Shown here piece after piece: positions 10,590 through 40,800 of a stretch of 55,428 bases of DNA. Under the pieces are notes generated by a model. The model saw only the letters and a list, made by a program, of their open reading frames with translations. It did no database searches and had not been told where the DNA came from. The translations under genes and the position numbers were made by a program. Numbering within the stretch: position 1 is the first letter of the stretch; each line of letters starts with the position of its first letter. The stretch covers positions 1 through 55,428 of the forward strand of contig JAABUD010000316.1 in assembly GCA_011389555.1 (NCBI GenBank), in the 5' to 3' direction. The DNA is from Desulfotignum sp. (lineage in GTDB: Bacteria; Desulfobacterota; Desulfobacteria; Desulfobacterales; Desulfobacteraceae).

Positions 10590-10617
10590 CACGTCAATTC
10601 ATTCACGTCAATTCATT
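10590..10617. repeat. Perfect 14-bp tandem duplication at the mttB-like stop
   Basis: CACGTCAATTCATT is repeated head to tail at 10590-10603 and 10604-10617; the second copy reaches the TAA stop of the methyltransferase gene. It looks like a simple slippage duplication. Confidence 0.8.
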
Positions 10618-12065
10618 TAAGGATACAAGGGCAACGCATCCGGGTCCACCCCTTTTGTCCGCATAAACGTGTCCATGGCACCGAGCACATCCGGAGCGAT
10701 CCGGGGCGGTTCATACCGGGCCAGCATCCGGTCCCGGGTATCCTGAATATTTTTGAGCAGTTTTTCATGGGGGGACATGCCGGCCAGGTGGCCCCGCAAC
10801 GCCACACAAGGATTCCAGGTATGGGACCGGCATTTTTTCATGGTGTCCATGGTGGTGAGAAACAACCCCCCCGGCCCCACGGATTCAATGAGATCGAAAT
10901 TCAGGGTGGTGTCGTCCACAATCATGTCATCCATGTAGAACCGGATCATCTGAATGATCTCCAGGTCCATGATGAATTTTTCAAAAGACAGGGCGGCAAA
11001 ACTGTCCAGGATGCCGGCACTGTGGACGATCAGGCTCACCTGGTTATGCAGGGCCGTGAACATGGACAGCATGCTTTCATACCCGGCCGGGGCAGACAGG
11101 CTTTTTGCATCGCTGACCGATCCCCCGGCCCGGCTGGGCAGGCCATAATACCGGGCCAGGGCTGCGCAGTACTTTGCCTGGAGCGCATAGGCCGGGGACC
11201 CGATGGAGATGTTGCCGGTTTTCATGTCCGACCCATAGCACTGGATACCGAAAACCACGGGCGTGCCGGGATGCAGGACCTGGGCCATGCAGATGAGGCC
11301 TAAGGCTTCGGCCGTGGCCATGGCCACGTTGCCGGCCAGGTCGATGGGACCGGTGGTACCGGCCGCCACCCCCGGAGACAGAATCACGGGCTGACGGTAT
11401 TTTCCCGCCACATCCAGGGCACACAGTCCCGTGTCATCCACCTGCAGCGGGCTCACTGGGCTGATCATGGTCAGAACCCGGGGAGTCCGGGCGAACGCTT
11501 CCTTCCCGCCCGTGCGGATGGCAGCCAGGGTCATGATATCCTCCATGTGCGGCCGGCTGCCCGGTATCCCGAAAACACATTTGTCCGAATAGATCAGGGT
11601 TGCATACATCATGGCCAGGTGACTGACCCCGGCGGCCACATCCGACGGCTGGGCCAGAATGCCGCCGTTGATGTGAAACAGCTCACTGACGTGCACCAGT
11701 TTCAAAAGATCCACATGATCCTGGAAGATCGCGCCTCTGATGTTGCCGGCCGGATCCATGATCGATGCGCATCCATATCCGGCAGCCACGCTGGAGGATC
11801 CATCCCCCAGGATGACGTCATGTTCGGGCGCGATCCCGTGCAGGGTGAATTGCGCCGGGGCCCGGGCCAGCAGTTCATCCACCCGGTCGGAAGAGAACAC
11901 CACCCGGTCGGATTGAACTGTCACCCCTTTTTCCTGCAACAGATCCAGAAACGGCCGGCTTAAAACCCGGATGCCGATTCGAGAGAGTATCTGCCGGGCC
12001 ATATGGTCCAGCTTTTCCAGGTTTTCTGTGGCCGGTTCCTGTGTTACCGGCAAAATTCGGGTCAT
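10617..12065 (-). CDS. MttB-family (trimethylamine methyltransferase-like) corrinoid methyltransferase, non-pyrrolysine
   Basis: 482-residue member of the MttB superfamily, TIM-barrel enzymes that move a methyl group from a quaternary or tertiary amine to a corrinoid protein. The open reading frame has no internal UAG, so it is the non-pyrrolysine type that includes the glycine-betaine methyltransferase MtgB. Recognisable stretches are GYGCASIMDPAGNIRGA, FGIPGSRPHMEDIMTL and GIQCYGSDMKTGNISIGSP. AGGAG precedes the ATG. No corrinoid protein or MtgA-like partner is adjacent; instead it sits 96 nt upstream of tdh-kbl in the same direction, suggesting a shared amino-acid or betaine catabolic theme. 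The substrate cannot be read from the sequence. Confidence 0.85.
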   Translation of the reverse strand: MTRILPVTQEPATENLEKLDHMARQILSRIGIRVLSRPFLDLLQEKGVTVQSDRVVFSSDRVDELLARAPAQFTLHGIAPEHDVILGDGSSSVAAGYGCASIMDPAGNIRGAIFQDHVDLLKLVHVSELFHINGGILAQPSDVAAGVSHLAMMYATLIYSDKCVFGIPGSRPHMEDIMTLAAIRTGGKEAFARTPRVLTMISPVSPLQVDDTGLCALDVAGKYRQPVILSPGVAAGTTGPIDLAGNVAMATAEALGLICMAQVLHPGTPVVFGIQCYGSDMKTGNISIGSPAYALQAKYCAALARYYGLPSRAGGSVSDAKSLSAPAGYESMLSMFTALHNQVSLIVHSAGILDSFAALSFEKFIMDLEIIQMIRFYMDDMIVDDTTLNFDLIESVGPGGLFLTTMDTMKKCRSHTWNPCVALRGHLAGMSPHEKLLKNIQDTRDRMLARYEPPRIAPDVLGAMDTFMRTKGVDPDALPLYP

Positions 12066-15976: not shown

Positions 15977-16459
15977 ATGAAAAACAGAGAAATTGATCAG
16001 ACAGACCGGCGCCTTATCCAACTTTTGGCCGGGGACGGAAGAAAGCCGGCCAGAGAACTGGCAGAGGAACTTGATGTCTCCATTCCCACGGTTCAGTCAA
16101 GGATGAAACGGCTGATCACCGGTGGGGTCCTCAAAGTGGCAGGCCTGGTCAACACCTTTAAGGCCAAAGGGACCCTGACCGCCATTATTGCCATCCGGGT
16201 GGATGATGTTTCCAAAATGGCCAGGGTCTTTGATCAACTCGGCGAATTTGATCGGGTGGTCTGGGCTTCTGCCGTCACCGGACAGTACGACATCTTTGCT
16301 GAAATCATCATCACCGAGGGCATCGAAAGCATGTTTGATTTTTATGTGGACGAGATCTCTAAACTGGAGGGGGTGACCCATTCCGAGTCTTTTATGGTGA
16401 CCAAAACAAAGCGCAATTGGGTCCTGCTCCCTCCGGATCTAAAGGGATGGATTAAGTAA
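15977..16459 (+). CDS. Lrp/AsnC-family transcriptional regulator
   Basis: 160 residues: an N-terminal helix-turn-helix (DQTDRRLIQLLAGDGRKPARELAEELDVS and SIPTVQSRMKRL, residues 6-46) and a C-terminal RAM ligand-binding fold (about 65-150; LTAIIAIRV, WASAVTGQYDIFAEIII). It is the first gene of a run of seven co-directional genes, 9 nt before the epimerase gene, so it is the likely local regulator responding to an amino acid such as glutamate. No Shine-Dalgarno sequence is visible before the ATG and the leader is very AT-rich. Confidence 0.9.
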   Translation: MKNREIDQTDRRLIQLLAGDGRKPARELAEELDVSIPTVQSRMKRLITGGVLKVAGLVNTFKAKGTLTAIIAIRVDDVSKMARVFDQLGEFDRVVWASAVTGQYDIFAEIIITEGIESMFDFYVDEISKLEGVTHSESFMVTKTKRNWVLLPPDLKGWIK

Positions 16460-16468
16460 GCGTGGAAA

Positions 16469-17539
16469 ATGAAAATACATAACATTCAAATCTGGAAAGA
16501 AAACCTGGAACTTACCCGGCCTTATGCCATTGCCTATGAGCGGATTGAGGCGGTTGAAAATGTATTTGTCCTTATTGAGGCGGATACCGGGCTCACCGGC
16601 ATTGGCGCAGCCTCCCCATCTCCTGAAGTCACGGGCGAGACCATCTCGCATTGCCAGGAACGTCTTGAACAGGTGCTTGCACCCGTCTTGACTGGTGCGG
16701 ATCTTCGACGGTTCAAGTCCCTGCTCCGGCAGCTGGGCAACACCCTGGCCTCTGCCCCCGGGGCCCTGGCCGCGGCGGACATCGCACTGCACGATCTTGC
16801 AGCCAAGGCGCTGGATCTTCCCCTGGTGACCCTGTTGGGCCAGGTCCATGAGGGCCTGCCCACCTCGGTGACCATTGGCATCCTCCCTTTGGAAGAGACC
16901 CTTGATGAGGCAAAAGAATTTATCGGAAACGGCTTTCACATCCTCAAAATTAAAACCGGAATTGACCTGGATGAGGATATCGAACGGATGGTCAAACTCC
17001 GGGAAGCCCTGGACAGACGGGTGATACTCAGGGTCGATGCCAACCAGGGATACTCGCCTGCGCAGTATCAAACATTTTACCATCAGACCCGGAATCTAAA
17101 CCTTGAATTTGTTGAACAGCCGCTGAAGGCTTCGGACATCTCAGGCATGTGCCGCCTGCCAAAAGAGATCCGGGACTGGACGGCCGGGGATGAAACCATT
17201 CTTGATCCCGCCTCTGCTGTCAGCTGTCTGGGAGATCCCCGGCCATTCGGGATTTTTAACATCAAACTGATGAAATGCGGAGGGGTTGCACCGGCCATGG
17301 AAATTGCGGCCATGGCCGTCCATGCCGGTATTGATCTGATGTGGGGCTGCAACGATGAAAGTATCATCAGTATCACGGCTGCCCTTCATGCCGCCCTGGC
17401 CTCTCCGACGACAAAATACCTGGACCTGGATGGGAGCCTGGACCTGGCCCGGGATGTGGTGGACGGCGGTTTTCTGCTCAGGGACGGCTGGCTCTATCCA
17501 AATGAACAGCCGGGCCTGGGGGTCCACAGACGAGCGTAA
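16469..17539 (+). CDS. Enolase-superfamily epimerase: dipeptide epimerase or N-acetyl-D-glutamate racemase (DgcA-like)
   Basis: 356-residue muconate-lactonising-enzyme subgroup member. The catalytic set is complete: KxK at 160-162, metal ligands Asp190, Glu216 and Asp241, and general base Lys266 within NIKLMKCGG. A DxD pair lies at 319-321, which in Ala-Glu epimerases binds the free amino group of the dipeptide. The next gene encodes a DUF1611 protein. That pairing is known from the DgcA-DgcN route, in which D-glutamate is N-acetylated and then racemised to N-acetyl-L-glutamate. Retention of DxD keeps L-Ala-D/L-Glu epimerisation possible. The fold and catalysis are certain; the substrate is inferred. 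Confidence 0.88.
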   Translation: MKIHNIQIWKENLELTRPYAIAYERIEAVENVFVLIEADTGLTGIGAASPSPEVTGETISHCQERLEQVLAPVLTGADLRRFKSLLRQLGNTLASAPGALAAADIALHDLAAKALDLPLVTLLGQVHEGLPTSVTIGILPLEETLDEAKEFIGNGFHILKIKTGIDLDEDIERMVKLREALDRRVILRVDANQGYSPAQYQTFYHQTRNLNLEFVEQPLKASDISGMCRLPKEIRDWTAGDETILDPASAVSCLGDPRPFGIFNIKLMKCGGVAPAMEIAAMAVHAGIDLMWGCNDESIISITAALHAALASPTTKYLDLDGSLDLARDVVDGGFLLRDGWLYPNEQPGLGVHRRA

Positions 17540-17565
17540 AAAAAGCGTATCAAGGACAAGGTAAA

Positions 17566-18678
17566 ATGAACGATCAGAATTGTATGATGGGCACGGCTTG
17601 TGTATTTACAAACGGCAAACTGGACCGGCCCGATGCCAAAACCGCACACGGACTGATCCGGGGAACGGAACGCTTTGATATCATCGGAGTGGTGGACCAC
17701 TGCCATGCTGGAAAAGATGCCGGAGAGTGTCTGGACGGCCGGCACCGGGAGATCCCGGTTCACAACTCCGTGTCAGATCTCATTAACAAAACCGGAAAAA
17801 AACCGGACTTCGGCATCATTGGGGTGGCCATTTCCGGGGGCAGACTGGATGCTGCCTGGCAGGAACTGATTCTTGATGCCATGGCACATGGCCTTTCCAT
17901 TATCAACGGGATGCATATGCTGCTCACCGAGATCCCCAGGTTTCAAAGGGCAGCCGCGACCAACGGTGTGGAACTCATTGACATTAGAAAACCCAAACCC
18001 TTTGATCAGCTCAAAGCCTGGACCGGTGAGATCTATTCCGTGGCAGCCCCCAGAATTGCGTTCCTGGGCTCGGACTGCGCCCTGGGCAAGCGGACCACGG
18101 CAAGAATGGTTGAAAAGCTTTGCCTCAGGGCCGGTATAAAGGCGGAGATGATTTATACCGGCCAGACCGGATGGCTTCAGGGCTATACGTACGGCTTTAT
18201 TTTCGATGCCACCTTGAACGATTTTGTCAGTGCCGAGGTGGAGAATGCCATTGTCCAATGCAGCAGAAATAGGGCCCTGGATCTGATTCTGATAGAGGGG
18301 CAGTCTGCCCTGCGCAACCCATTGGGACCCTGTGGGGCTGAAATTGTGGTTTCAGGTAATGTCAAAGGGGTGATTCTGCAGCATGCTCCCTTTAGAAAAT
18401 ATTTCGATGACCTGGATCATGTGGGGTGCCTGCTGCCGGATCTGGAAAGCGAGATCCGGCTTGTCGAGATGTACGGTACTTCTGTGCTGGCCGTTACCCT
18501 GAATGGAGAGGGTGGATCTTCTGAACAACTCACAGACTACGCTGTCCAGACTCAGGAGCAGACCGGTATCCCAATGATCCGGCCCATAGAAGAAGGGGTG
18601 GATCGCCTGCTGCCCATTGTGGAAAAGTTCATGGCTGCGCATGACGATTTGTCAGATGTCACCCGAATTGACCGTTGA
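17566..18678 (+). CDS. DUF1611 protein, candidate D-glutamate N-acetyltransferase (DgcN-like)
   Basis: 370 residues. The N-terminal half is a Rossmann-like DUF1611_N domain (FDIIGVVDHCHAGKDAGE, PDFGIIGVAISGGRL). The C-terminal half has a P-loop-like GSDCALGKRTT near 168-178, QTGWLQGYTYGFIFD and IEGQSALRNP. The family was long annotated as NAD-dependent epimerase; members called DgcN acetylate D-glutamate using acetyl-CoA. It lies 26 nt after the DgcA-like gene and 64 nt before the transporter genes, consistent with uptake followed by conversion of D-glutamate or D-Glu-containing peptides. Family assignment is firm; the reaction is inferred from context. Confidence 0.85.
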   Translation: MNDQNCMMGTACVFTNGKLDRPDAKTAHGLIRGTERFDIIGVVDHCHAGKDAGECLDGRHREIPVHNSVSDLINKTGKKPDFGIIGVAISGGRLDAAWQELILDAMAHGLSIINGMHMLLTEIPRFQRAAATNGVELIDIRKPKPFDQLKAWTGEIYSVAAPRIAFLGSDCALGKRTTARMVEKLCLRAGIKAEMIYTGQTGWLQGYTYGFIFDATLNDFVSAEVENAIVQCSRNRALDLILIEGQSALRNPLGPCGAEIVVSGNVKGVILQHAPFRKYFDDLDHVGCLLPDLESEIRLVEMYGTSVLAVTLNGEGGSSEQLTDYAVQTQEQTGIPMIRPIEEGVDRLLPIVEKFMAAHDDLSDVTRIDR

Positions 18679-18742
18679 TTCAAAGGGACCGGGATCAACC
18701 ACGTGCCCGGAATATATATCAACCATTAATTTTGGAGGAGAA

Positions 18743-19552
18743 ATGAAAAAAAATCTTGTGTTAATGATGACAGGGATGGTGTTCATTTTACAACTGGCCT
18801 GCGGAACGGCCTTTGCCGCAGATGAGGTAGTTACTGTCTGTGTGGATACGGAATATCCGCCCTGGACCTGGGTCGAAAAGGGTGAGGTCAAGGGCTTTGA
18901 CTGGGAATTGTGGCAGTTTATTGCCCAGGACAATGGATTTACGATCAAGCCCTCATTTGTGCCCTGGCCCCAGAGCCTGATTGCCGTGGAAAAGGGACAG
19001 GCCGATGTCCAGGCCGGCGGGGTATCTTTTACCTGTGACCGGGCTGAAAAACTCAGCTTTGCAAAACCCTACTGGCGCCACAGCTTTTTTGCCCTGGTCC
19101 GGGCCGATTCCGACCTGAACGGGGTGACCGCCCTGAGCATGGGCGCCAAGGTCGGTTCTCTGATGGGCACCAGCCTGATGTGGCTGGAAAACAACCTCAA
19201 AGCAAATGGCGTGGATGTGACCCTCCAGGCTTATGACAGTACGGACCTGGGAATGAAAGACCTGGAAAACGGCAGGATCGATACCATGTTTGTAGACGGC
19301 CCGACTGCCAAGTCCTTTATTGAAAAGGGCAGGAACGTCAAAGCCGTCGGACAGGGGTATGGATATGATTTTACCGCATATTCCGTGCCCAAGGGAGATC
19401 CTAAAAACCTGATTCCCAAGATCGAAAAAAGCATCAAAAAGGCCTATGAATCCGGCAAATGGGCTGAACTGGTGGCCAAATACCTGCCCGGTTCCCCGGT
19501 GGTGGACGTCCCCATGGACGTGGATTATGACAAGGATATCTGCATGAAATAA
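18743..19552 (+). CDS. Polar amino-acid ABC transporter substrate-binding protein
   Basis: 269 residues from ATG 18743, chosen for its GGAGGAG site and signal peptide (residues 1-25, cleavage after AFA). Family 3 solute-binding protein: VCVDTEYPPWTWVEKGEVKGFDWEL opening, QADVQAGGVSFTCDRAEKLSFAKPYW hinge region and a C-terminal lobe ending in YDKDICMK. It captures a polar amino acid in the periplasm for the two permeases and ATPase downstream. Context suggests glutamate-like or D-Glu-containing ligands. The cysteine near the signal-peptide end does not fit a lipobox. Confidence 0.9.
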   Translation: MKKNLVLMMTGMVFILQLACGTAFAADEVVTVCVDTEYPPWTWVEKGEVKGFDWELWQFIAQDNGFTIKPSFVPWPQSLIAVEKGQADVQAGGVSFTCDRAEKLSFAKPYWRHSFFALVRADSDLNGVTALSMGAKVGSLMGTSLMWLENNLKANGVDVTLQAYDSTDLGMKDLENGRIDTMFVDGPTAKSFIEKGRNVKAVGQGYGYDFTAYSVPKGDPKNLIPKIEKSIKKAYESGKWAELVAKYLPGSPVVDVPMDVDYDKDICMK

Positions 19553-19570
19553 GGATGCGGACCTGATGCA

Positions 19571-19595
19571 GCCCGGAAATTTTCCTTTTCCGGGT
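19571..19595 (+). other. Stem-loop between binding-protein and permease genes
   Basis: CCCGGAAA (19572-19579) pairs with TTTCCGGG (19587-19594) around a 7-nt loop; flanking bases extend it slightly. Hairpins here commonly protect the binding-protein message and reduce permease expression. There is no U tract. Confidence 0.6.
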
Positions 19596-19616
19596 TGCCA
19601 AGGTAAAGGATACGTT

Positions 19617-20279
19617 TTGGATATTGTCTACACATTGATCGGAGAGCTGCCCCAGTTTGGCAAAGGCGTGCTGGTGGCACTGCAGCTGCTGGCAGGCCTG
19701 ATGACCCTTGGCATGATTCTGGGACTGGTCCTCGCCGCTCTGGAGGTGTTCGGCAGTCCGGTGTTGAAGTTTGTTGCCGGCTGGATCAGAAAACTGCTCT
19801 GGGCGGTCCCTCAGCTGGTGCTCTTATCCATTGTCTTTTATCTGCCATTTAACCTGAATCCCATGGTGGCGGCCATCTGTGCCCTGGGACTCTGTTCCGC
19901 TGCATTCCAGTCCCAGATTTTCAGAGGCGCTATCATGGCCATCCAGCCCGGTCAGCTGGAAGCGGCGAAAGCCATGGGTTTGGGACAGGCCAAAACCATT
20001 ATCTACGTGATCCTTCCTCAGATGGTGAGGCTGTCCATCGGCGGGTGGACCAATGAACTGGCCTCGGAACTCAAGGATACCTCTCTGGCCTATGTGGTGG
20101 GGGTGATGGAAATCATGCGCCAGGGTAAATCCATCATCTCCTATACTTTTGGCAATTCCCTGGTTGTGTATTTTTTTATCGCCTGTATTTATTTCTGCTT
20201 GACCCGGACCGGGACCTATATTTTTTACCGGCTTGAAGACCGGCTTTGGGTGCCTGGATTTGAGAAAAGAAAGGACTAA
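19617..20279 (+). CDS. Amino-acid ABC transporter permease (HisM/GlnP family)
   Basis: 220 residues from TTG 19617, preferred because AAAGGA lies 6 nt upstream and the intercistronic hairpin stays outside the gene; ATG 19566 would add 17 poorly conserved residues. Four to five hydrophobic segments with the permease signature QPGQLEAAKAMGLGQAKTIIYVILPQM, whose EAA loop contacts the ATPase. It forms a heterodimer with the second permease at 21034. The interleaved order permease-ATPase-permease is less common than adjacent permeases. Confidence 0.9.
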   Translation: MDIVYTLIGELPQFGKGVLVALQLLAGLMTLGMILGLVLAALEVFGSPVLKFVAGWIRKLLWAVPQLVLLSIVFYLPFNLNPMVAAICALGLCSAAFQSQIFRGAIMAIQPGQLEAAKAMGLGQAKTIIYVILPQMVRLSIGGWTNELASELKDTSLAYVVGVMEIMRQGKSIISYTFGNSLVVYFFIACIYFCLTRTGTYIFYRLEDRLWVPGFEKRKD

Positions 20280-20288
20280 GGGTCTGAT

Positions 20289-21023
20289 ATGTTATTGAGA
20301 GTTGAAAATCTGCATAAATCCTTTGACGGCCTGGATGTGTTAAAAGGGATCTCATTGGGTCTTGAAAAAGGCCAGGTGACTGTGGTGATCGGTTCTTCCG
20401 GTTCGGGGAAAAGCACCCTGCTCCGCTGCATCAACTGCCTGACCCCTCCGGACAAAGGGCAGGTCTGGCTGGAAAACCTGGAACTGACTGCCAAAGACGC
20501 AGACTTGAACCAGGCCCGTTCAAAACTGGGATTTGTGTTCCAGGACTTTAATCTGTTTACTCACCTGACCGTGCTGGAGAATGTCTGCTTCGGTCCTTTG
20601 CGTGTGAACAAAAAATCGAAGGAAGAGTCCAGGCAGATCGCGTTAGAGGAAATTGAGAGAGTGGGGATGCTGGATAAACTGGATGCCTATCCTGCACAGC
20701 TCTCCGGCGGCCAGCAGCAGCGCATTTCCATTGCCCGGGCCCTGGCGCTCAAACCCCAGTTGATCATGTTTGACGAGCCCACCTCTGCGTTGGACCCGGA
20801 GTTGACCGGTGAAGTACTCTCTGTCATGTCCGGGCTTGCAAAGGACGGGATGACCCTGCTGGTGGTGACCCACGAAATGGGATTCGCAAGGTCTGTGGCT
20901 GACCGGATTATCTTTATGGAAGGGGGCACCATCCTGGAACAAGGGCCGCCGGAGCAACTTTTCACGGCGCCTGAGAATGAACGGACCCGTTACTTTTTAC
21001 AAATGATATCCCAGCTGGAATAA
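20289..21023 (+). CDS. Polar amino-acid ABC transporter ATP-binding protein (GlnQ/HisP family)
   Basis: 244 residues. Walker A is GSSGSGKST, the Q-loop VFQDFNLFTHLTVLEN, the signature LSGGQQQR, Walker B LIMFDEPTSALDPE and the H-switch VVTHEMGFA. All are typical of the GlnQ subfamily that energises polar amino-acid uptake. It lies 9 nt after the first permease and 10 nt before the second. Confidence 0.95.
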   Translation: MLLRVENLHKSFDGLDVLKGISLGLEKGQVTVVIGSSGSGKSTLLRCINCLTPPDKGQVWLENLELTAKDADLNQARSKLGFVFQDFNLFTHLTVLENVCFGPLRVNKKSKEESRQIALEEIERVGMLDKLDAYPAQLSGGQQQRISIARALALKPQLIMFDEPTSALDPELTGEVLSVMSGLAKDGMTLLVVTHEMGFARSVADRIIFMEGGTILEQGPPEQLFTAPENERTRYFLQMISQLE

Positions 21024-21033
21024 GGGGGCTGCT

Positions 21034-21705
21034 GTGGAAGATTTTTTGACGTATTCATGGACCATTCTGCCTTCCCTGCTGGAGGGCACCGTGATTACCC
21101 TGGAGTTGTCCGCCATCTGCATTGTCGTGGGGCTCGCAGCCGGCTCTATGATCGGCCTGGCCCGGGTGTACGGCAACAAACCCGTCTACCGGATCGCCAC
21201 CATCTATGTGGAGGTGGTGCGGGGTACCCCGCTGATTACCCAGGTCTTTTTTATCTACTTCGGGCTGGGGGATATCGGCATCCTGCTCAAACCGGTGGTT
21301 GCTGCCGGCCTGGCACTGGGGATCAATACCGCTGCCTACCAGGCCGAATATTTCAGAGGAGCGATCCGTGCCATCAAACCCGGCCAGGTGACGGCTGTTC
21401 AGGCCATGGGCGGCACAAAATTCGACGCGATCCGCTACGTGATTATACCCCAGATGTTCCGCATCGTTATCCCTTCGGCCTCCAACGAAATCATCTATAT
21501 GGTCAAATGCACTTCCATCGCTTTTACCGTCGGGGTTCCGGAGCTGATGTTCAAGGCCAACAGGGAGGGACTGATGCACTTCAAATACGTGGAAACCTAT
21601 ATCCTTGCCGCATTGATTTATATTGTCATTATCCTGACTTTGGCCCAGATACTCAAATTCGTGGAGCAAAAAATTGCTATCCCCGGCCTGGGGCTCAAAG
21701 CCTGA
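21034..21705 (+). CDS. Amino-acid ABC transporter permease (second subunit)
   Basis: 223 residues from GTG 21034, preceded by AAGGGGG. Signature segments are TLELSAICIVVGLAAGSMIGLARVYG, EVVRGTPLITQVFFIYFGLG and the EAA loop KPGQVTAVQAMGGTKFDAIRYVIIPQ (the usual EAA is altered to TAV). It is the last gene of the operon beginning at 15977; the AT-rich repeat region starts directly after it. Confidence 0.92.
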   Translation: MEDFLTYSWTILPSLLEGTVITLELSAICIVVGLAAGSMIGLARVYGNKPVYRIATIYVEVVRGTPLITQVFFIYFGLGDIGILLKPVVAAGLALGINTAAYQAEYFRGAIRAIKPGQVTAVQAMGGTKFDAIRYVIIPQMFRIVIPSASNEIIYMVKCTSIAFTVGVPELMFKANREGLMHFKYVETYILAALIYIVIILTLAQILKFVEQKIAIPGLGLKA

Positions 21706-21952: not shown

Positions 21953-22032
21953 ATATCCCTGATTGGCAACACTTTCATCGCCCTTGCAAAAAAAATTATC
22001 AGAAATGCAAAATTTTGTATTTCTGATAATTT
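21953..22032. repeat. Repeat copy 2 with a 40-nt perfect hairpin
   Basis: It starts TATCCCTGATTGGCA. The hairpin at 21993-22032 has 14-bp perfect arms (AAATTATCAGAAAT / ATTTCTGATAATTT), one G-T wobble, then CAAAA/TTTTG, giving 20 paired positions with essentially no loop as DNA. The core GAAATGCAAAA...TTGTATTTC is shared with copy 3. Confidence 0.8.
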
Positions 22033-22217
22033 CAAAAACAGATCTTAGAATAAATACTCTTAAATCACTGCCAGTCAAGTGATTTCAGGTTTTTCGAAAA
22101 GGTTCATGAAACATGATCCCACTGATATTTTTTCATCCACCCAAGGCATGGGTCTTTTTGTCAGCCCGTCAAAAAAACGGCAAGGGCATATTTCTGGCAG
22201 AAACTCCCTTATATCAA

Positions 22218-22293
22218 CTGTTTCCAGCCTTATCAGATGGTTGATGAAAACAGGAGTGTCGGAAATGCAAAAAATTGTATTTCCGACACTCCT
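22218..22293. repeat. Repeat copy 3 with a 42-nt hairpin and different outer arms
   Basis: The hairpin at 22252-22293 has 15-bp perfect arms AGGAGTGTCGGAAAT / ATTTCCGACACTCCT, the same G-T wobble and CAA/TTG core as copy 2, and a 4-A tip. The outer arms differ from copy 2 in sequence but remain fully complementary. The upstream part resembles copy 2 more weakly. Confidence 0.75.
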
Positions 22294-22699
22294 CAAATGA
22301 TACATGCCGGTATCCCGCCATGGCAAGGAGATTCGCTGGAAATATACAATCTGACATGCCCGACAATTCCGCCCGCAAATCTGTAACTGATTCTTCTGGC
22401 AATCTCAAAATTATTGCGGAACATGCTCCTGGTTGAATCTTTTCCGGAAACAGGCCCGATTCCCGGCATATGTTCTAAACTCCTTTCCAGTGGGACAACA
22501 CACCACCCTGCTGAAAACTTTTGCATAATTCTCGTCCCAATGTTTTGACATTTCATTACGATCAACATAAGGATAAATATCGGTATTCTTGATTTTTCAG
22601 AGCCGTGAATACTCTCCTTTCGGATAATTATGGTAAAGAAGGGAAAATTGATAACGCTTGATTCAGCATCATTTGCAATCAATTGTTGTGCTTTTATCT

Positions 22700-23194
22700 T
22701 TATTTCAATATCTTAGCAATTTCGGTATGAAATCGTTTTTGTTGACCGCTTGAAGGGAATGGAACTATAATTCCTTCGTTTAAAACACGAAAACCCTTTA
22801 ATTTCAGTTTATCTTCAAGCAATCGACAAATATTTGCTTTAATCAAAATTAACTGGGATTTTTTCCCATTAATGCCCACAAGATCATCAATTAAATTGTT
22901 AAAGTCTGAAAGGATTGTAGTCTCTCGTTCTTTATCCTTAATTTTATCGACTGGTTTGTAAGTTGAATCAACCAAGAAAAACCCACGATTCTTAAAATAT
23001 TCAAGCCCATCTTTCTTATCAACAGGTTTATAATGAAGAGCCTTCATCATCTCATTGTATAAAGGCTCAGTCGTTGATCCCGTTTCATCATAAAAATATT
23101 TGCCAGATGCAGGAGGTGATTCTAAAATGAAAATAATCCTCAAGATTTCTGGCAAGTATTTGTTTCTTAATTTCAGATAATATTCTTTATCCAT
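22700..23194 (-). CDS. Hypothetical protein, possible uracil-DNA-glycosylase-fold family
   Basis: 164 residues, Lys/Ile/Asn-rich and from an AT-rich gene unlike its GC-rich neighbours. The motif IFILESPPASGKYFYDETG (residues 21-39) resembles the (G)ESPP-x-SG-x-(F)FY motif of uncharacterised proteins with a uracil-DNA-glycosylase-like fold; PLYNEMMKAL follows. The C-terminal half contains SQLILIKANICRLLEDKL. There is no signal or membrane segment. It stands alone in a region that looks horizontally acquired. The fold assignment is tentative, and no enzymatic role should be assumed. Confidence 0.7.
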   Translation of the reverse strand: MDKEYYLKLRNKYLPEILRIIFILESPPASGKYFYDETGSTTEPLYNEMMKALHYKPVDKKDGLEYFKNRGFFLVDSTYKPVDKIKDKERETTILSDFNNLIDDLVGINGKKSQLILIKANICRLLEDKLKLKGFRVLNEGIIVPFPSSGQQKRFHTEIAKILK

Positions 23195-23276
23195 TGCTTA
23201 TTCCGGTATCTGAATAACAACGTCTGGGATCTGGCACGGCTATTTTTCCGTCGCCTGCCTCCGGCTTGTTGGGCGA

Positions 23277-23717
23277 TCACTCGTCGTCTTGAGGCGCCCG
23301 CTCTCTCCACTCCAGTCGCGCCAGCATCTCAAGGTTTTCGATCTTGACATCTTCAACCAGGACAAATGGCGAGTATGCGTTCCACATCTGATGAAATGGG
23401 TAGTGAACAGGAAACGGCTCGATGGATTCCAGGTGACGGGATATCAAGAAGCAGTGACTATGGTGAGATTGCCCTGTTCTCTGCGTCAGATCTTCAACGA
23501 TATGGTTCATTTGGATCGCAAATTGGCGTGAGGCTTTGATTCTGTCTTCAGATAGCAATGGAAAAACCTTAGCTTCCGCCTGATTCTCGGTCGCCTCGAC
23601 CCAGAATGAGTCAACAGAGTCCCCTCCCCATCTTCCATTCAGAAAAACACAGTCTGGCCAGACCCATCGCACGATCAATGACCGAGTCCTCCGGAGAATG
23701 TTCTCGATTTCACCCAA
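23277..23717 (-). CDS. Hypothetical protein
   Basis: 146 residues from TTG 23717; not recognised. It is rich in Trp, His and acidic residues (WVWPDCVFLNGRWGGDSVDSFWVEA, SHHSHCFLISRHLES). There is no signal peptide or membrane segment. The first ~15 residues overlap a better-initiated 52-codon frame at 23675-23833, so the two may be one frameshifted gene, or this gene may start further in. Composition is intermediate between the AT-rich segment and the chromosome. Confidence 0.5.
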   Translation of the reverse strand: MGEIENILRRTRSLIVRWVWPDCVFLNGRWGGDSVDSFWVEATENQAEAKVFPLLSEDRIKASRQFAIQMNHIVEDLTQRTGQSHHSHCFLISRHLESIEPFPVHYPFHQMWNAYSPFVLVEDVKIENLEMLARLEWRERAPQDDE

Positions 23718-23833
23718 CGGATATTATTGCTATTTTTCACCTCCCACATTGAATGTGTACTTTCATAAATCCAAGTTGACACATTGTCTTCAAACTCAAT
23801 TATTTTACTTTGGTTTGATTGAATCTTTGACAT
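23675..23833 (-). CDS. Small ORF (52 residues), possibly the broken 5' end of the next gene
   Basis: ATG 23833 with AAAGGAA about 9 nt upstream encodes a 52-residue peptide beginning MSKIQSNQSKIIEFED and containing STWIYESTHSMWEVKNSNN, then TGA at 23677-23675. It overlaps the start of the 146-residue ORF in another frame. The good ribosome site and non-random composition suggest it is or was translated. A single frameshift could join it to the downstream frame. Confidence 0.4.
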   Translation of the reverse strand: MSKIQSNQSKIIEFEDNVSTWIYESTHSMWEVKNSNNIRWVKSRTFSGGLGH

Positions 23834-23931
23834 ATTTGCCTATTCCTTTACGGTGTATAAATTTTGTAGCAAATAACGGCTGCGATCACCGGAAAATCGG
23901 CCGCAGGCTAATTCCCCAGTGAATTGCATGG

Positions 23932-24609
23932 TTAAGTGCTTTGTTTCAGTCCTTTATTGAATCCATACATATCAATGACCTTTGACTTAGTGTACGTAAT
24001 GCCTGAGTCATGTCCTGTGGCAAATTTTTTCACAAATATTTTTGAAGAATACTTGTCAATCTCTTCACTGTTATCGATATAGAATTTTTTGATACAGTGC
24101 AAGGATTTTTGGTTTACACTTCGAAAGCCACATATACCTTTAAATATATCCCTAAAAGTATTTCCAAAAAAATTGTCATAAGCAGGAATAAAACCAAAAA
24201 CACCAAGCATAATTTTGGTGACAAGGGTCAGGTGAGTGTTTCCGTTATTTACAATAATATGTTGAATTTCTCGATAGATGGAGCATATTTTTCTGATGTT
24301 TTCGTCAGAATATTGATCTACATCTATATCCCAAACAGAATGGTCTAAGCCGGCAATGAATCGAATAAGTGGCTCATAATATTTTACGCTTTTATTTAAT
24401 AAGAAACTCGAACCACGCAACATCCCCCAGCTTGCAAGATAAAACCCAAGTGATAGACAACTTTTTTCCATTTCCCCCAATAGATCGTTAGCTGTGGTGG
24501 GGTGAAAGTAGTGGTAGCAATAATCAAACGAAGCATACCGATCTGTAGGGGAATTCTCCAATTGGAATTCCGCAACCATTTTCGAAATGTCAGTTTGATG
24601 GTACTTCAT
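23932..24609 (-). CDS. Hypothetical protein of an AT-rich island
   Basis: 225 residues from ATG 24609 (a GTG at 24624 would add five). Not recognised. It is aromatic-rich with short conserved-looking blocks: YASFDYCYHYFHP, LGFYLASWGMLRGSSFLL, KYYEPLIRFI, WDIDVDQYSDENI, TLVTKIMLGVFGFIPAYDNFF. No signal peptide; the hydrophobic stretches are too short to be clear membrane spans. It stands alone between the small orphans and the giant hairpin, with codon use matching acquired DNA. Confidence 0.7.
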   Translation of the reverse strand: MKYHQTDISKMVAEFQLENSPTDRYASFDYCYHYFHPTTANDLLGEMEKSCLSLGFYLASWGMLRGSSFLLNKSVKYYEPLIRFIAGLDHSVWDIDVDQYSDENIRKICSIYREIQHIIVNNGNTHLTLVTKIMLGVFGFIPAYDNFFGNTFRDIFKGICGFRSVNQKSLHCIKKFYIDNSEEIDKYSSKIFVKKFATGHDSGITYTKSKVIDMYGFNKGLKQST

Positions 24610-25152
24610 GATTGTCTCATCCACACTTAAAAAGCTATTGTGTGGTTCGGTTCATCATGGATATTTGGATGATATCTGACCATATAGCCAATTATTAAGA
24701 TCTCATTATAGTGGTATCCAACATCCAACCATATTGCAACAAATCTTAATTCCCTAAAACCTCAACCATAGTTTCGTTATCATGAAGTCTGCCAAAACAC
24801 AATTATAAATTTTCCAACCTCAAGTTTGTTGCAACAAAACTTTTCCGGACCCAGGCAAACACCAGGATGGTGTATCCTCAGGCGATGTGATGCACCAGGT
24901 TCTGTTTTGTGGTCGGGTCCAGGATTGTGATAGACTATGATTCCCGGTGCAGCTGGGACACCGGCAGATGAGGGAAATTGTTTCCACCTCCTTGCCGATG
25001 CTGTGGTGGTGCCGGGGCAAAAGGACTTTCAACCGGGTGTCCATGCGGTATTTACTTACATGGTTCCAGGATGCCCCGGTAAATAAAGATACTGAATGTG
25101 GAAGAATCAGGCCCGGGATTTCATCCCCGCTCACCGCTGCCGTCAGCGACTA
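24610..25152. other. Intergenic stretch, no supportable gene
   Basis: 24610-24835 is AT-rich with nothing recognisable. 24836-25150 shifts to higher GC and has a 104-codon minus-strand frame (24820-25134) resembling no family I can name, with competing open frames on the other strand. It may be decayed coding DNA, but its origin cannot be assigned. Confidence 0.5.
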
Positions 25153-25343
25153 GTGCCGGGGGGTTCCTGTGGGTTGAATCCCATTCTGACGCGTTTGCTA
25201 CAGGGAGTTGGGCATGGCGAAGCGTCAAGAACGGCAAATTGTTTGAGGACACACCTGCCCGCAGTTTTTGCCGTTCAGCGCAGCCATGCCCTACTCCATG
25301 TCAAACGCGGCAGAGGGTGAAACCCACAGGGACCCCCCGGCAC
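25153..25343. repeat. 191-nt imperfect palindrome (MITE-like element or structured RNA locus)
   Basis: The outer arms GTGCCGGGGGGT (25153-25164) and ACCCCCCGGCAC (25332-25343) pair perfectly. The stem continues to 23 bp with one G-T pair (to 25175 / 25321). Inner stems follow in register: GCGTTTG/CAAACGC (25191-25197 / 25302-25308), GGAGT-T-GGGCATGGC / GCCATGCCC-T-ACTCC (25204-25218 / 25283-25297) and GAACGGCAAA/TTTGCCGTTC (25229-25238 / 25267-25276). The apical loop holds a small CTGC-CC-GCAG hairpin. No open reading frame is conserved across it. It lies 25 bp beyond the 3' end of the YkgJ gene. Confidence 0.85.
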
Positions 25344-25368
25344 GGGTCTGATGACCCGGCAAAAAAAT

Positions 25369-26151
25369 TCAGCTTTTCTTTGCCTGAAAATTTTCCTGGC
25401 CTGCATAAAACAACGTGGCTTTGAGCCATTCAAAACCAAATTGCAGCAATTTTACATCATCCTCCCGGATGTCAGCCACTCGGTCTTCAGGGATGTCATA
25501 CCGCTCCAGAAAAGAGGTCTTGAACACAAACTCCCTGAATTTATCGATATTGTAACAGACCATGAAAAATATTTTTTTGCTCTCTTCCGACAATTTCATG
25601 CTGGAAGGCAGCGACTTTTTCCGGACCATGAGATCCATCCACCCCTCGTTCACCGCGTCCCGCAGATCGATGCCCTGGTCCTGGCGCCACTCGGCCACGG
25701 TCCACTCCTTGTCCTCTTCAAATCCCAGGCAGTGAGCTTCTTTGACGGTAAAGAAAAACTCGTCCTTGTCCCCCTGTTCCCCGGAATAACTCAGGGCGCC
25801 CACCCCGATGGGATAGTACCGGCAGGTGGTGGGGCGGTCCTCATAAATCACGCACCCGTCTTTTTCCTCCACAAACGGACACGAGTTGCGCGCATCATCC
25901 AGCAATTTGAGGGTCACCACGGGCAGGTCCGCTTTTTCCAGTATCCTGGGTTCGGTAAATACCGCCAAAAACTCTTCAGAGGTCAAATCCAGTTTCCGGC
26001 GCATGGTCAGAATATCATAGGGGGTGAGCATGATATCGATGCCCCGGCAGCAGTCGGTGAAACATTTGACGCCTTTGTGGCACCGGAATTTGAACCGGGT
26101 GTCGAGGCTCATCTGCTGGGGAGGGATTTCCGAAATTTTCTGATCGTTCAT
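25369..26151 (-). CDS. YkgJ-family cysteine-cluster protein
   Basis: 260 residues of the YkgJ/CxxCxxCC zinc- or iron-chelating family. The N-terminal cluster has Cys24, Cys30, Cys34 and Cys35. A second set follows in SCPFVEEKDGCVIYEDRPTTCRYYP, the family's C-P-F...G-C-x-I-Y-x-x-R-P-x-x-C-R signature. A helical C-terminal extension (about 150-260) is longer than in minimal members. It probably binds a metal or Fe-S centre; the molecular role of the family is unknown. It is divergent from galU. Confidence 0.87.
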   Translation of the reverse strand: MNDQKISEIPPQQMSLDTRFKFRCHKGVKCFTDCCRGIDIMLTPYDILTMRRKLDLTSEEFLAVFTEPRILEKADLPVVTLKLLDDARNSCPFVEEKDGCVIYEDRPTTCRYYPIGVGALSYSGEQGDKDEFFFTVKEAHCLGFEEDKEWTVAEWRQDQGIDLRDAVNEGWMDLMVRKKSLPSSMKLSEESKKIFFMVCYNIDKFREFVFKTSFLERYDIPEDRVADIREDDVKLLQFGFEWLKATLFYAGQENFQAKKS

Positions 26152-36509: not shown

Positions 36510-37859
36510 TTACACCACCCCCTGATCCATCATGGCATCCGCCACTTTGACAAACCCGGCGATATTGGCCCCGTTCACGTAATTTCCCGGTGTGCCGTAT
36601 TCTTCGGATGCCGCCAGGCTCTCGCGATGAATATGCTGCATGATATTGCTGAGCCGTTCTTCCACTTCCTGGCCGGTCCACTTGATGCGCATGGCATTCT
36701 GCGCCATTTCAAGTCCGGATACGGCCACCCCCCCGGCATTGGCTGCCTTGCCCGGCGCAAACAGGATTTTGCGGTCCAGAAAAATATCGATGCCTTCCAG
36801 GGTCGTGGGCATGTTGGCCCCTTCGCAAACCACCTGTACGCCGTTGTTGACCAGATTCTGGGCATCGACCTCATTGATTTCGTTCTGGGTGGCGGACGGA
36901 AACGCACAATCTGCCTTGTGATCCCACAATGGACTGTGATCCGCCGCCGGAATGAATTCCGTGTACACCGCGTCTGAATATTTTTGTGCATATTCCTTGA
37001 TGCGGCCCCGCTTGACGTTTTTCAGATACATCACATAAGCCAGTTTTTCCACATCGATGCCCTTTTCATCATAGATGTATCCCATGGAATCAGACAGCGT
37101 GACCACTTTGCCGCCCAGATGAATGATTTTTTCCGTGGTATACTGGGCCACGTTTCCGGAGCCGGATACCAGACAGATCTTGTCTTTCAGGGTTTGTTGC
37201 CGGGTAGCCAGCATCTCCCGGGCAAAATACACGGCCCCGTATCCCGTGGCTTCCGGCCGGATCAGGCTGCCGCCCCAGTTGAGACTTTTGCCGGTGAGCA
37301 TGCCGCTGAACTCGTTTTTCAGTTTTTTATACATGCCGAACATATATCCGATCTCCCGGCCCCCGACCCCGATATCGCCTGCCGGAACATCCCTGTCCGC
37401 GCCTAAGTGCCGGAACAGTTCCGACATGAAGCTCTGGCAGAACCGCATCACTTCATTGTCGGACTTGCCCTTGGGATCGAAATCCGCGCCCCCTTTGGCA
37501 CCCCCCAGGGGCAGGGTGGTCAGGGCGTTTTTGAACACCTGTTCAAAGGCCAGAAACTTGAGAATGGACAGATTCACGGAAGGGTGAAACCGCAGTCCGC
37601 CTTTGTAGGGACCGATGGCGGAGTTCATTTCAACCCGGAATCCCCGGTTCACCTGGACCCGGCCCTGGTCATCCGACCAGGGAACCCGGAACTGGATGAT
37701 CCGCTCCGGCTCCACCATACGTTCCACAATACCGGCATGACGGTATTCAGGATTCCGGTCCAACACCAGCTTCACCGATCCGACCACCTCGGTGACCGCC
37801 TGATGAAATTCCTTTTCATGGGGATCCCTGCCACTGATAATATCCATGATTGTCGTCAT
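36510..37859 (-). CDS. gdhA: Glutamate dehydrogenase, hexameric (NADP-type, GdhA family)
   Basis: 449 residues, the usual length for the small hexameric enzyme. Active-site and substrate motifs: NRGFRVEMNSAIGPYKGGLRF, PLGGAKGGADFDPKGKSDNE with the catalytic lysine, and PAGDIGVGGREIGYMFGMYKK. The Rossmann domain has VSGSGNVAQYT. It interconverts 2-oxoglutarate plus ammonia and glutamate; the family is mostly NADP-linked and assimilatory. It lies 34 nt downstream of a large NAD-type glutamate dehydrogenase gene in the same direction, an unusual pairing. AGGAG precedes the ATG. Confidence 0.95.
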   Translation of the reverse strand: MTTIMDIISGRDPHEKEFHQAVTEVVGSVKLVLDRNPEYRHAGIVERMVEPERIIQFRVPWSDDQGRVQVNRGFRVEMNSAIGPYKGGLRFHPSVNLSILKFLAFEQVFKNALTTLPLGGAKGGADFDPKGKSDNEVMRFCQSFMSELFRHLGADRDVPAGDIGVGGREIGYMFGMYKKLKNEFSGMLTGKSLNWGGSLIRPEATGYGAVYFAREMLATRQQTLKDKICLVSGSGNVAQYTTEKIIHLGGKVVTLSDSMGYIYDEKGIDVEKLAYVMYLKNVKRGRIKEYAQKYSDAVYTEFIPAADHSPLWDHKADCAFPSATQNEINEVDAQNLVNNGVQVVCEGANMPTTLEGIDIFLDRKILFAPGKAANAGGVAVSGLEMAQNAMRIKWTGQEVEERLSNIMQHIHRESLAASEEYGTPGNYVNGANIAGFVKVADAMMDQGVV

Positions 37860-37893: not shown

Positions 37894-40800
37894 CTATGCT
37901 TTTTTATCCGCCGGTTCGAACAATGCCTTCATGGCCGGAACAAACGCTTTCCGGGTGGATGCCACATACGCATCCCACTCGCTGCCATGCCGGTAAAATG
38001 CCGTGGACGCAATTTTCTTGGTGACAATGGCATTGCGGTAAGCCTGCAGTTTTTCCGCATTCATGATGCCCAGAATCGCTTCTCTGCCCAGAATTTTCAC
38101 CAAAACCCGGGGAATATAGGCGGCCATCACCTGCCAGAGCAGGTCTTCATCCGCCAGAATCGTATCCAGGGCATCCGCCACCTGGTTCTGGAAAGCAAAG
38201 ATCTGTTCACTGGTCTGTTCCGACAGGACAAACAGCGGTGTTTCCGGATTTTTTTCATGAATTTTCAACAGCATGGCTGTCTCGTTGCTGGCGTGGTTCC
38301 GCACCAGGGTCAGCATATCCCGGATCAGAGCCCACCGGGTGGAGACATCTTCCAGAAGGCGTTTTTCATACTCGTCTTCAAACAGAAACGCGGTGAGCAC
38401 TTCCGCCACGGCGGATGAAAACACCCCGCCCTTGTTGGCCGAAGAGTCCTTGACCTGGAGAATACCGGTGTTTTTGGCGATATACCGACGGGCCGCATCA
38501 TCGAAAAACACATTGGCCCCTTCCACGATGAACCGCAGTTCCTTGAACAGGGACGTAAACGCCTTGACATTGCGCTGGTTGATGGTGTCCTTGAATCCGC
38601 CGCAGGGGATGAAGGCCTGGATATCGGCCTGTTCAATGAATTTCCGGTTGGCCGGGTCCGTGATGAAGTTGCGGTGAAACATGGCGCCGTCTGCCACAAA
38701 GGTCCCGTCCGGCAATGTGATGTTCTTGCCTTTCAGCGGCACCCGGAACCCGTTGGGACTGAGTTTTTCCTCGGGAAACGCCATGGAATTGTTCCGGGGA
38801 TGGGTATGGCGCATGAACGCGATTTTCATCAGGGTTTCCCTGTCCAGCCCTTCCGGGTCGAACAGAATGGACCCGCCGTCTATCACCAGACAGATCTTTC
38901 CCTTATAGCACTGGATTTCATTGCTGCCCAGATCCCCGTCCGGTCCGCCGGTTATCATCAGGTTCAGATCTTTTTCTCTGGCATCGCTGTGGGCGATCAG
39001 GGTCCGGAATGCTCCCATCACGGAGGTGGTGGTCATGCCGCTGGTGTCCACCTGTCCGCCGATATGTTCGTAAATCCGGTCCATCTCCGTGGTGGTGACC
39101 ACGGAATCCCCGTTAACGAGCAGTTCCGTGCCGGATTTTCCATGGGGTACCAGCCCGAACAGGTCCTGATTTTCGAGCATCCCATAGGTGTCGTGGGGAA
39201 TCCCAAAGCTTTTGCCCGTGGTAATGGTCCGCCAGTAGGCATATCCGCGTTCCTTTGCCCGGAAAGCCACGGCATCCATCAACGGGGCCGTGCCTTCATC
39301 CGGCCCGAAAAACACCATCTCCGGCCGGCCGTAATAATCTTTGACTTGAGAATCCGCCAGCATCAGGTCCATGATGCCTTCGGTATAATCAAACAACGCA
39401 TCCATGCTGTAATGGGCATAGGTGAAATGGGGCACCACCACCCCTTTGGAACCGCTCTCACAGATATCCTTGTGTTTGAGGCGCTGGGCCTTGGGACCCA
39501 GCGCATAGTTGAGAAGCACGGCGTTGTCCAGTTCCGTGGCGTGGTTGGCCGTGGTCACCCGGATCAGGCGCAGGCCCCCTCTGGCAATGTCATCGGCCCG
39601 AAGATGGGTCCCTGTGGAATAATGGCCATTGACAAAGAACAGCCCGTAGACAAACTGTTTGAATACCAGCGGATCCAGCACCTGATGGGTCAGACGGAAT
39701 GAGAACGAGCGTTTTTCCGGTTTGTAGAAATTGGTCTTCAGGCAGCAGGATATCAGTTTGAACATGAACTTGAACACATCATACCCCAATGGATCGTCCA
39801 TGAACCGCACGGCCAAAAGCTGCTCGAATTCCACGGATTTCATTTCCAGCCGTTCCCCGGTTATCTCCCCGGGACTGGCCGGATTGAATCGGGCATCGAA
39901 CAATTCAAACAGAAACCGGATCAGATCCGGATGGTCCATGGCCGTATCCAGGATCACGTTGGAGACATAGGTGAATTTATTGGACTCGTGAATCCGGGCG
40001 GAAAACGCTTCCTGGTGATCCACGGAATCCAGACTTTCCATGATCTCCCGGTCGGTGCGGGTGCCTTGTTCCTTGTAAATGAACAGATGGGTGAAATCCA
40101 CGGCATTGCCGGCAAACAGCATCTCCTGAAAGCTGAGAATTCCCTCCACGTACAGCTGGGTGATCCGGCTGATGCGAAAACTCAAAAAAGCCTGAAGATC
40201 GGCAATCAGAGGGGCCTCCTGGTTTCTTGACAGCTCGCCGGACACATACAGTGAGCAGATGGATGTCGCCACCCGGGTCTCGGTGAAATACGGCTCCCAG
40301 TATGCCCGGGTAATGGTCAGGCCGTGATCGGCAAACAGTTTTCTCAACACCGGCAGCTGCGGCCGTTCAAAATCTGAATTGAACATGAACCGGATTTCAC
40401 CGATATCCGACAGGTTGAACACTTCCACAAACGGGGTGACATGCTGGCTGACCTGTGTCAGAAACTTTTCATACCGGTTCCGGGTCAACCGGGGGATGGC
40501 AGTGAAATCCAGGTTCCGGTTGAACAGGAAACGCGATTCCATAAAATCGGAATCCGGATAATCCATCACGGTTTCCGGTCGGTACACATAGGTATAATAG
40601 GATTTTTCCGGATTGTAGTAATATTCTCGTCTGTGACCGGCCAGCATTTTGTCCAGAATCCGTTCCATGCGGTCCCGGGTGTCTTTTGTCGCAATTCGTA
40701 TCCGCTGGACATTGCTGTCCTGGGTCAGGTCGAAATCGATATCCGCCACCCAGGAATGGAGAACGCCTTTGTTTTCACTGAAATAGATGCCTTTGGCAAT

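Follow-up and report, generated by a model that had tools for sequence, protein, structure and literature searches.

A run of seven genes in a Desulfotignum sp. contig (JAABUD010000316.1; the whole stretch of 55,428 nucleotides is referred to as the window) encodes an Lrp regulator, an enolase-superfamily epimerase, a DUF1611 protein and a four-gene amino-acid importer. Based on the relationships of these proteins it is proposed, with a probability of roughly 0.43, that the operon serves to import a positively charged D-amino acid, D-ornithine being the likeliest candidate, and to convert it to its L enantiomer with no need for a racemase dependent on pyridoxal phosphate (PLP). A preliminary description of this DNA had interpreted the run as the DgcA-DgcN route for D-glutamate. 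The two-enzyme architecture, the operon-like run and the importer with its Lrp regulator were retained from this description, whereas D-glutamate as substrate had to be given up due to the failed model cut-offs for DgcN and DgcA, the separate clades, the absence of the GltI residue in the importer and the orthologues of the latter next to ornithine genes.

In the mechanism that we infer, from substrate and chemistry to acyl donor, direction and regulation, the importer would take up the free amino acid, and the DUF1611 protein, in analogy to DgcN, would acylate the alpha-amine of this amino acid; the donor would be either acetyl-CoA or an amino acid activated by ATP. The epimerase would abstract the alpha-proton from the N-acyl or dipeptidyl substrate and return a proton so as to give the L form, while Asp296 and possibly Glu24 would contact the cationic side chain. 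The product N-acetyl-L-ornithine would be an ordinary substrate of ArgJ, L-ornithine could pass to ornithine aminotransferase, and the Lrp regulator may sense the amino acid. The genome of the window encodes ArgJ (461 bits, cut-off 298) and ornithine aminotransferases, two of them strong matches and a third barely above the cut-off, and an Orr-type racemase was not found in it at E 1e-40.

If this proposal holds, the trick known for D-glutamate would extend to amino acids of a new class. The DUF1611-epimerase module would be separated from D-glutamate. DUF1611 occurs beside at least two unrelated kinds of racemase (enolase-superfamily and PLP enzymes), and carrying over the function of DgcN and DgcA to all DUF1611 pairs would mislead. 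We know of no physiological role for the cationic-type dipeptide epimerases, for which the operon would offer a testable one. The operon also points to a way in which a sulfate reducer might exploit D-ornithine or related D-amino acids that other bacteria release. That the host is a sulfate-reducing anaerobe, the latter already presumed in the preliminary description, is plausible from a partial dsrA match, which is broken by a contig end (401 bits, cut-off 392.85; passed by 0 of 14 controls).

Family relationships of the epimerase and the DUF1611 protein

The catalytic set of the epimerase is complete, as had been noted before: the alignment contains the Lys-x-Lys motif (K160, K162), the Asp/Glu/Asp metal ligands (D190, E216, D241), the second Lys (K266) and the DxD at 319-321, which together define an MLE-type member of the enolase superfamily. 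The best sequence match in the PDB is the dipeptide epimerase of Methylococcus capsulatus (3rit; also 3ro6) with 367 bits and an identity of 52.6%, and the identity to the DgcA of Vibrio tritonius amounts to 27%. In the tree, one clade (100/100) unites the window protein, 3rit and 25 further enzymes linked to DUF1611, and the single DgcA row groups with YcjG of E. coli (100/100). The scores stayed below the cut-offs of the NCBIfam models for DgcA (NF042940; 132.5 bits, cut-off 400) and for Ala-Glu epimerases (193.7 bits, cut-off 500, and 87.1 bits, cut-off 343). The 3rit enzyme, reportedly of cationic specificity, shares not only the clade but also a characteristic Asp with the window protein.

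This residue, Asp296 in the window, corresponds to position 298 of YkfB and is Asp in 31 of the 33 DUF1611-clustered epimerases of the residue table, which was drawn up without the truncated epimerases of L003, L008, L010 and L017 and without the copy in L052 (L and G numbers denote our loci and genomes). At the same position YkfB carries Ile, YcjG and DgcA carry Leu, and the Enterococcus enzyme carries Glu. Position 24 is Glu in the window and acidic in 15 of the 18 rows from its phylum, Arg in YkfB and Gly in both YcjG and DgcA. YkfB and YcjG, which are L-Ala-D/L-Glu epimerases, resemble the window protein in the catalytic Lys pair, the metal ligands and the DxD, but differ from it at residues 24 and 298. 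The substrate L-Ala-D-Glu, which had been suggested as well, is disfavoured, since the window protein carries E24 and D296 in place of R24 and I298 of the YkfB pocket. We take R24 to act in the substrate pocket of YkfB; YcjG lacks it, too. The DxD had been read as a marker of dipeptide substrates, which does not hold because it also occurs in DgcA and YcjG. As far as the alignment can tell, Asp296/298 would be the better marker and position 24 the weaker evidence. Position 24 as sole specificity marker was set aside, since any of E, D, Q, G, K, R, N and Y may occur there and the Methylococcus enzyme 3rit differs from the window protein in having Arg. A variable specificity of dipeptide epimerases is predicted in a passage of PMC13338154, which does not state the preference of 3rit.

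A similar separation was observed for the DUF1611 protein. Against the DgcN model (NCBIfam NF041892; cut-off 480) it scored 116.5 bits. The tree separates the two DgcN rows from all 49 others (100/100); it is midpoint-rooted, contains only these two DgcN rows and places their long branch beside the haloarchaeal row. The DgcN rows are set apart from the epimerase-type DUF1611 group by 36 fixed differences. The C-terminal half is a P-loop domain according to Pfam, and the Walker A residues are kept in all DUF1611 groups compared, including DgcN. The structure model reached a predicted local distance difference test value of 87.7, and a Foldseek search with it returned 2obn, 2g0t and 7xrj (DgcN) first, followed by dethiobiotin synthetases (BioD). 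The match to 7xrj covers 355 alignment columns for 370 residues with a template modelling (TM) score of 0.69. BioD provides the closest folds outside DUF1611 and DgcN, at a low TM score of 0.36.

Compared to the known DgcN-DgcA system (EC 2.3.1.312 and 5.1.1.25), the window thus shares the adjacent genes for a DUF1611 protein and an enolase-superfamily racemase, and it would share the logic of N-acylation followed by racemisation. It differs in the clades and model scores given above, in pocket residues and an importer that point away from acidic substrates, and in the importer and Lrp genes that adjoin the pair. The pathway of DgcN and DgcA is described in PMC12363236 and PMC10845958 and the enzyme activities in PMC11747546. 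No published description of a DUF1611-epimerase-importer module was found among the titles, abstract starts and passages considered.

The importer and its orthologues beside ornithine genes

With an SBP_bac_3 binding protein, two HEQRo-type permeases and an ATPase, the importer belongs to the polar amino-acid type of ATP-binding cassette (ABC) importers. In an alignment with E. coli binding proteins, which was read by eye, the window protein contains the conserved Arg and Asp for the two ends of an amino acid, which presumably bind the alpha-carboxylate and the alpha-amine. The same comparison by eye places an Asp of the window protein at a position that is Asp in ArgT, HisJ and GlnH, Arg in GltI, Ser in ArtJ and Glu in TcyJ. 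An importer of the GltI type is not indicated, since Asp replaces the GltI Arg, and with 47 and 86 bits the GltK model was missed as well (cut-off 318). The predicted ligand of the binding protein is ornithine or a different amino acid of positive charge, in the D or the L form.

Orthologues of the importer were found in 5 of the 85 other genomes of the family (G020, G033, G028, G406 and G378; 6 of 86 with the genome of the window). The binding protein is 47-48% identical to three of the orthologues, and the identities to the L092 proteins are 68% for permease 1, 66% for the ATPase and 59% for permease 2. In G020, G406 and G378 (loci L092, L118 and L120), the four importer genes are directly followed by genes for an Orr-family PLP racemase, an ornithine aminotransferase and an Lrp regulator, so that three of the five orthologous importers adjoin the racemase and aminotransferase genes. 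The three aminotransferases pass TIGR01885 with 557-561 bits (cut-off 378.4). In G033 the trio of racemase, aminotransferase and Lrp genes sits on a different contig from the importer. G028 has none of these genes beside its importer, and Orr was not found in the genome. These loci and the window have the importer and a Lrp-family regulator in common, but where the former carry the racemase-family enzyme and the aminotransferase, the latter carries DUF1611 and the epimerase. The pair of the window may thus take the place of the Orr-family racemase. A role of Orr in ornithine degradation is described in PMC8803604.

The importer occurs in all four genomes with a close Orr (at least 67% identity) and in 2 of the 82 others, for which a Fisher test gave 7e-6, a value that overstates the case because the limit of 67% was chosen post hoc, the query came from G020 and the species are related. 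Both of the two others, the genome of the window (G000) and G028, carry the epimerase-DUF1611 pair, and a search at E 1e-40 revealed no Orr in them. DUF1611 at more than 50% identity was present in five of the six importer genomes, the window's own counted (Fisher 0.002). On plasmids, a search with the L092 binding protein yielded identities of 26-29% among the best 15 of 1097 records. As a side observation, positions 7844-14228 of L122 form a single run of genes for an Lrp regulator, an M20-like hydrolase and a tripartite ATP-independent periplasmic (TRAP) importer, the latter two assigned by eye, and an Orr-family racemase; the hydrolase had no NCBIfam match at E 1e-20.

Neighbourhoods of the pair and alternative explanations

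The association of the epimerase with DUF1611 is more general than that with the importer. A contig scan provided 21 database loci with relatives of the window DUF1611, mostly from Bacteroidota, and an epimerase adjoins DUF1611 in 17 of them (4 of the 17 being broken by a contig end); the remaining four are L001, L002, L004, where DUF1611 lies near the contig end, and L021. In the search among relatives, which comprised 78 genomes including that of the window, DUF1611 was matched in 19. The epimerase adjoins it in all 13 other genomes of the same order with more than 50% DUF1611 identity and in all of five further family loci (L143-L147), and in 7 of these 13 relatives an lrp gene lies near the pair (tblastn). 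Since only 7 of 297 sampled genomes of the phylum, the window's own included, gave a DUF1611 match, the module is patchy. The distance matrices of both proteins correlate with an r of 0.946 for 30 pairs, a value reached in 0 of 2000 permutations and to which shared ancestry contributes. The pairing is beyond chance.

Several observations weigh against uptake and inversion of D-ornithine. The full arrangement of epimerase, DUF1611 and importer was found in the window only. A tblastn search with all four importer genes detected a window-like binding protein or permease in none of the 13 same-order neighbourhoods (5.5-19 kb, some broken by contig ends), and the importer-like genes there were distant ATPases of at most 35% identity. 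The importers of G028 and G033 have no adjoining Orr, and since G020, G033 and G378 carry both Orr and the epimerase-DUF1611 pair, a shared substrate is not required. All six racemases scored remained below the cut-off of the Orr model (NCBIfam NF040742; 359-396 bits, cut-off 480), including those of G020 and G406 at importer loci with 378 and 391 bits, so that the ornithine assignment rests on the adjacent aminotransferase. The Asp of the binding protein does not separate ornithine from lysine, histidine and glutamine, and the arginine-binding ArtJ lacks it. At position 24 of the epimerase, Lys or Arg was found in 8 of the 13 other rows and Arg in 3rit, and both haloarchaeal epimerases beside DUF1611 have Leu instead of Asp at 298. 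A lysine-aminomutase search gave no match in any control. Finally, six of the 13 same-order loci (L043, L045, L046, L050, L051 and L052) combine the pair with an oligopeptide/opine-type importer and variously add amidohydrolases or an M20 hydrolase, and for these relatives peptides fit better.

The last point leads to the scavenging of cationic dipeptides, which is less probable than the import of a free D-amino acid and on balance unlikely. Here, the epimerase would act on L-Xaa-D-Xaa from peptide or murein fragments, DUF1611 on a free D-amino acid or in a side step, and the importer would serve released amino acids or small peptides. This would agree with the solved dipeptide epimerase in the epimerase clade and with a gene cluster near DUF1611 in 11 of the 21 database loci, the tested member of which belongs to the D-aminoacylase family, as well as with an M55 D-aminopeptidase at one locus. 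However, the importer of the window is of the polar amino-acid type with residues presumably binding free alpha-amino and alpha-carboxyl groups, none of the seven operon genes encodes a peptidase according to Pfam, and the tight pairing with DUF1611 would be left unexplained.

A two-enzyme route for another D-amino acid, namely D-Lys, D-Arg, D-Gln or D-His, appears rather improbable. The Asp that the binding protein has in common with ArgT, HisJ and GlnH would fit such substrates, and so would a LysE-type exporter gene two genes downstream of DUF1611 in L054 and a like gene in L055; on the other side, each of the three loci in which Orr follows the importer has an ornithine aminotransferase as the partner. 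With BioD as the closest outside fold and the kept Walker A, this DUF1611 clade could also be an ATP-dependent ligase that joins an L-amino acid to the cationic D-amino acid for a dipeptide epimerase. We regard this as a long shot; if true, the two enzymes together would racemise amino acids at the expense of ATP and without PLP, the tag being an amino acid rather than acetyl. Scavenging of D-glutamate via DgcN-DgcA, or of L-Ala-D-Glu, was rejected as very improbable: the joint occurrence of both protein superfamilies in a single run, a certain signal from the NCBIfam models of DgcN and DgcA, the extent of the structural match to 7xrj and the frequent Lys/Arg at position 24 of Bacteroidota-side epimerases (for which acidic substrates are possible) favour it, but scores far under both curated cut-offs, the trees with their separate clades, the fixed DUF1611 differences, Glu24/Asp296 in place of the Arg/Ile of YkfB and an importer that is not GltI-like and orthologous to ornithine-gene-linked ones oppose it.

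The remaining same-order neighbours of the pair are diverse, with an NhaC-type antiporter in L047 and L053, a FecCD-type importer in L048 and L049, and AraC and LysE genes in L054 and L055. In 8 of the 21 database loci, DUF1611 lies near a gene cluster of which the member tested was an APC permease. An Orr-family racemase is also the neighbour of DUF1611 on three plasmids, two from Vibrio and one from Phaeobacter (Table 1; 43% identity to the Orr family for the neighbour in L069), and in G054, G060 (where a contig end leaves a fragment), G340 and G402. This variety of partners suggests a general role of DUF1611 in the handling of D-amino acids, for which no single substrate should be assumed. 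Apart from this, a four-gene cluster recurs in L056, L057, L058, L076 and L077. It includes a threonine-synthase-like PLP enzyme, DUF1611, an epimerase with Asp298 and a protein of about 800 amino acids, which has a creatininase/MftE-type domain at the C-terminal end and no Pfam match in its N-terminal part.

Gene order and surroundings of the operon

The seven co-directional open reading frames (ORFs) extend from 15977 to 21705 on the plus strand, and their families agree between the preliminary description, Pfam and NCBIfam. The spacings are, in order, 9, 26, 64, 13, 9 and 10 nucleotides. Scans for promoters (7 versus 5.9) and terminators (6 versus 8.5) were at chance compared to shuffled sequences, so that co-transcription as an operon is deduced from how the genes are spaced and oriented. 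For the binding protein the most probable start is ATG 18743, which is preceded by GGAGGAGAA, rather than the upstream TTG 18617.

Table 1. Coordinates of the operon genes and of plasmid-borne DUF1611-racemase pairs
Feature	Position	Strand	Evidence
Lrp/AsnC-family regulator, operon gene 1	15977..16459	+	Pfam HTH_AsnC-type 47 bits, AsnC_trans_reg 36.4
Enolase-superfamily dipeptide/N-acyl-amino-acid epimerase, 3rit clade	16469..17539	+	MR_MLE_N/C, 3rit match, residues, tree
DUF1611 protein, predicted N-acylating enzyme for a D-amino acid	17566..18678	+	Pfam DUF1611_N/C; intact Walker A
Periplasmic amino-acid-binding protein, SBP family 3	18743..19552	+	SBP_bac_3 91 bits
Importer permease 1	19566..20279	+	BPD_transp_1; HEQRo 3TM 47.2 bits, cut-off 42.2
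Importer ATPase	20289..21023	+	ABC_tran; GlnQ model 299 bits, under cut-off 379
Importer permease 2, GTG start	21034..21705	+	BPD_transp_1; HEQRo 3TM 104 bits, cut-off 42.2
Plasmid DUF1611 and alanine/ornithine-racemase-family PLP enzyme, Vibrio/Phaeobacter	L070:5884-8198; L071:5944-8195; L069:5878-8132		

The genes for argG (44239-45462) and two glutamate dehydrogenases (36510-37859 and 37894-41043), which had been connected with the operon, are indeed present in the window, but with a distance of 15-24 kb they provide no evidence of linkage. Just downstream of the operon, the GC content drops to 0.40 and 0.46 in the 2-kb steps from 22001 to 26000, compared to 0.51-0.60 elsewhere; the one ORF tested in this block (22700-23194) had no Pfam match. 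On the minus strand, positions 10617-12065 encode a member of the trimethylamine methyltransferase (MttB) family with 227 bits against the pyrrolysine-type model (cut-off 525), and at the end of the window (53944-54966, minus strand) an oligopeptide/dipeptide-type ABC ATPase is encoded, which possibly belongs to a peptide importer.

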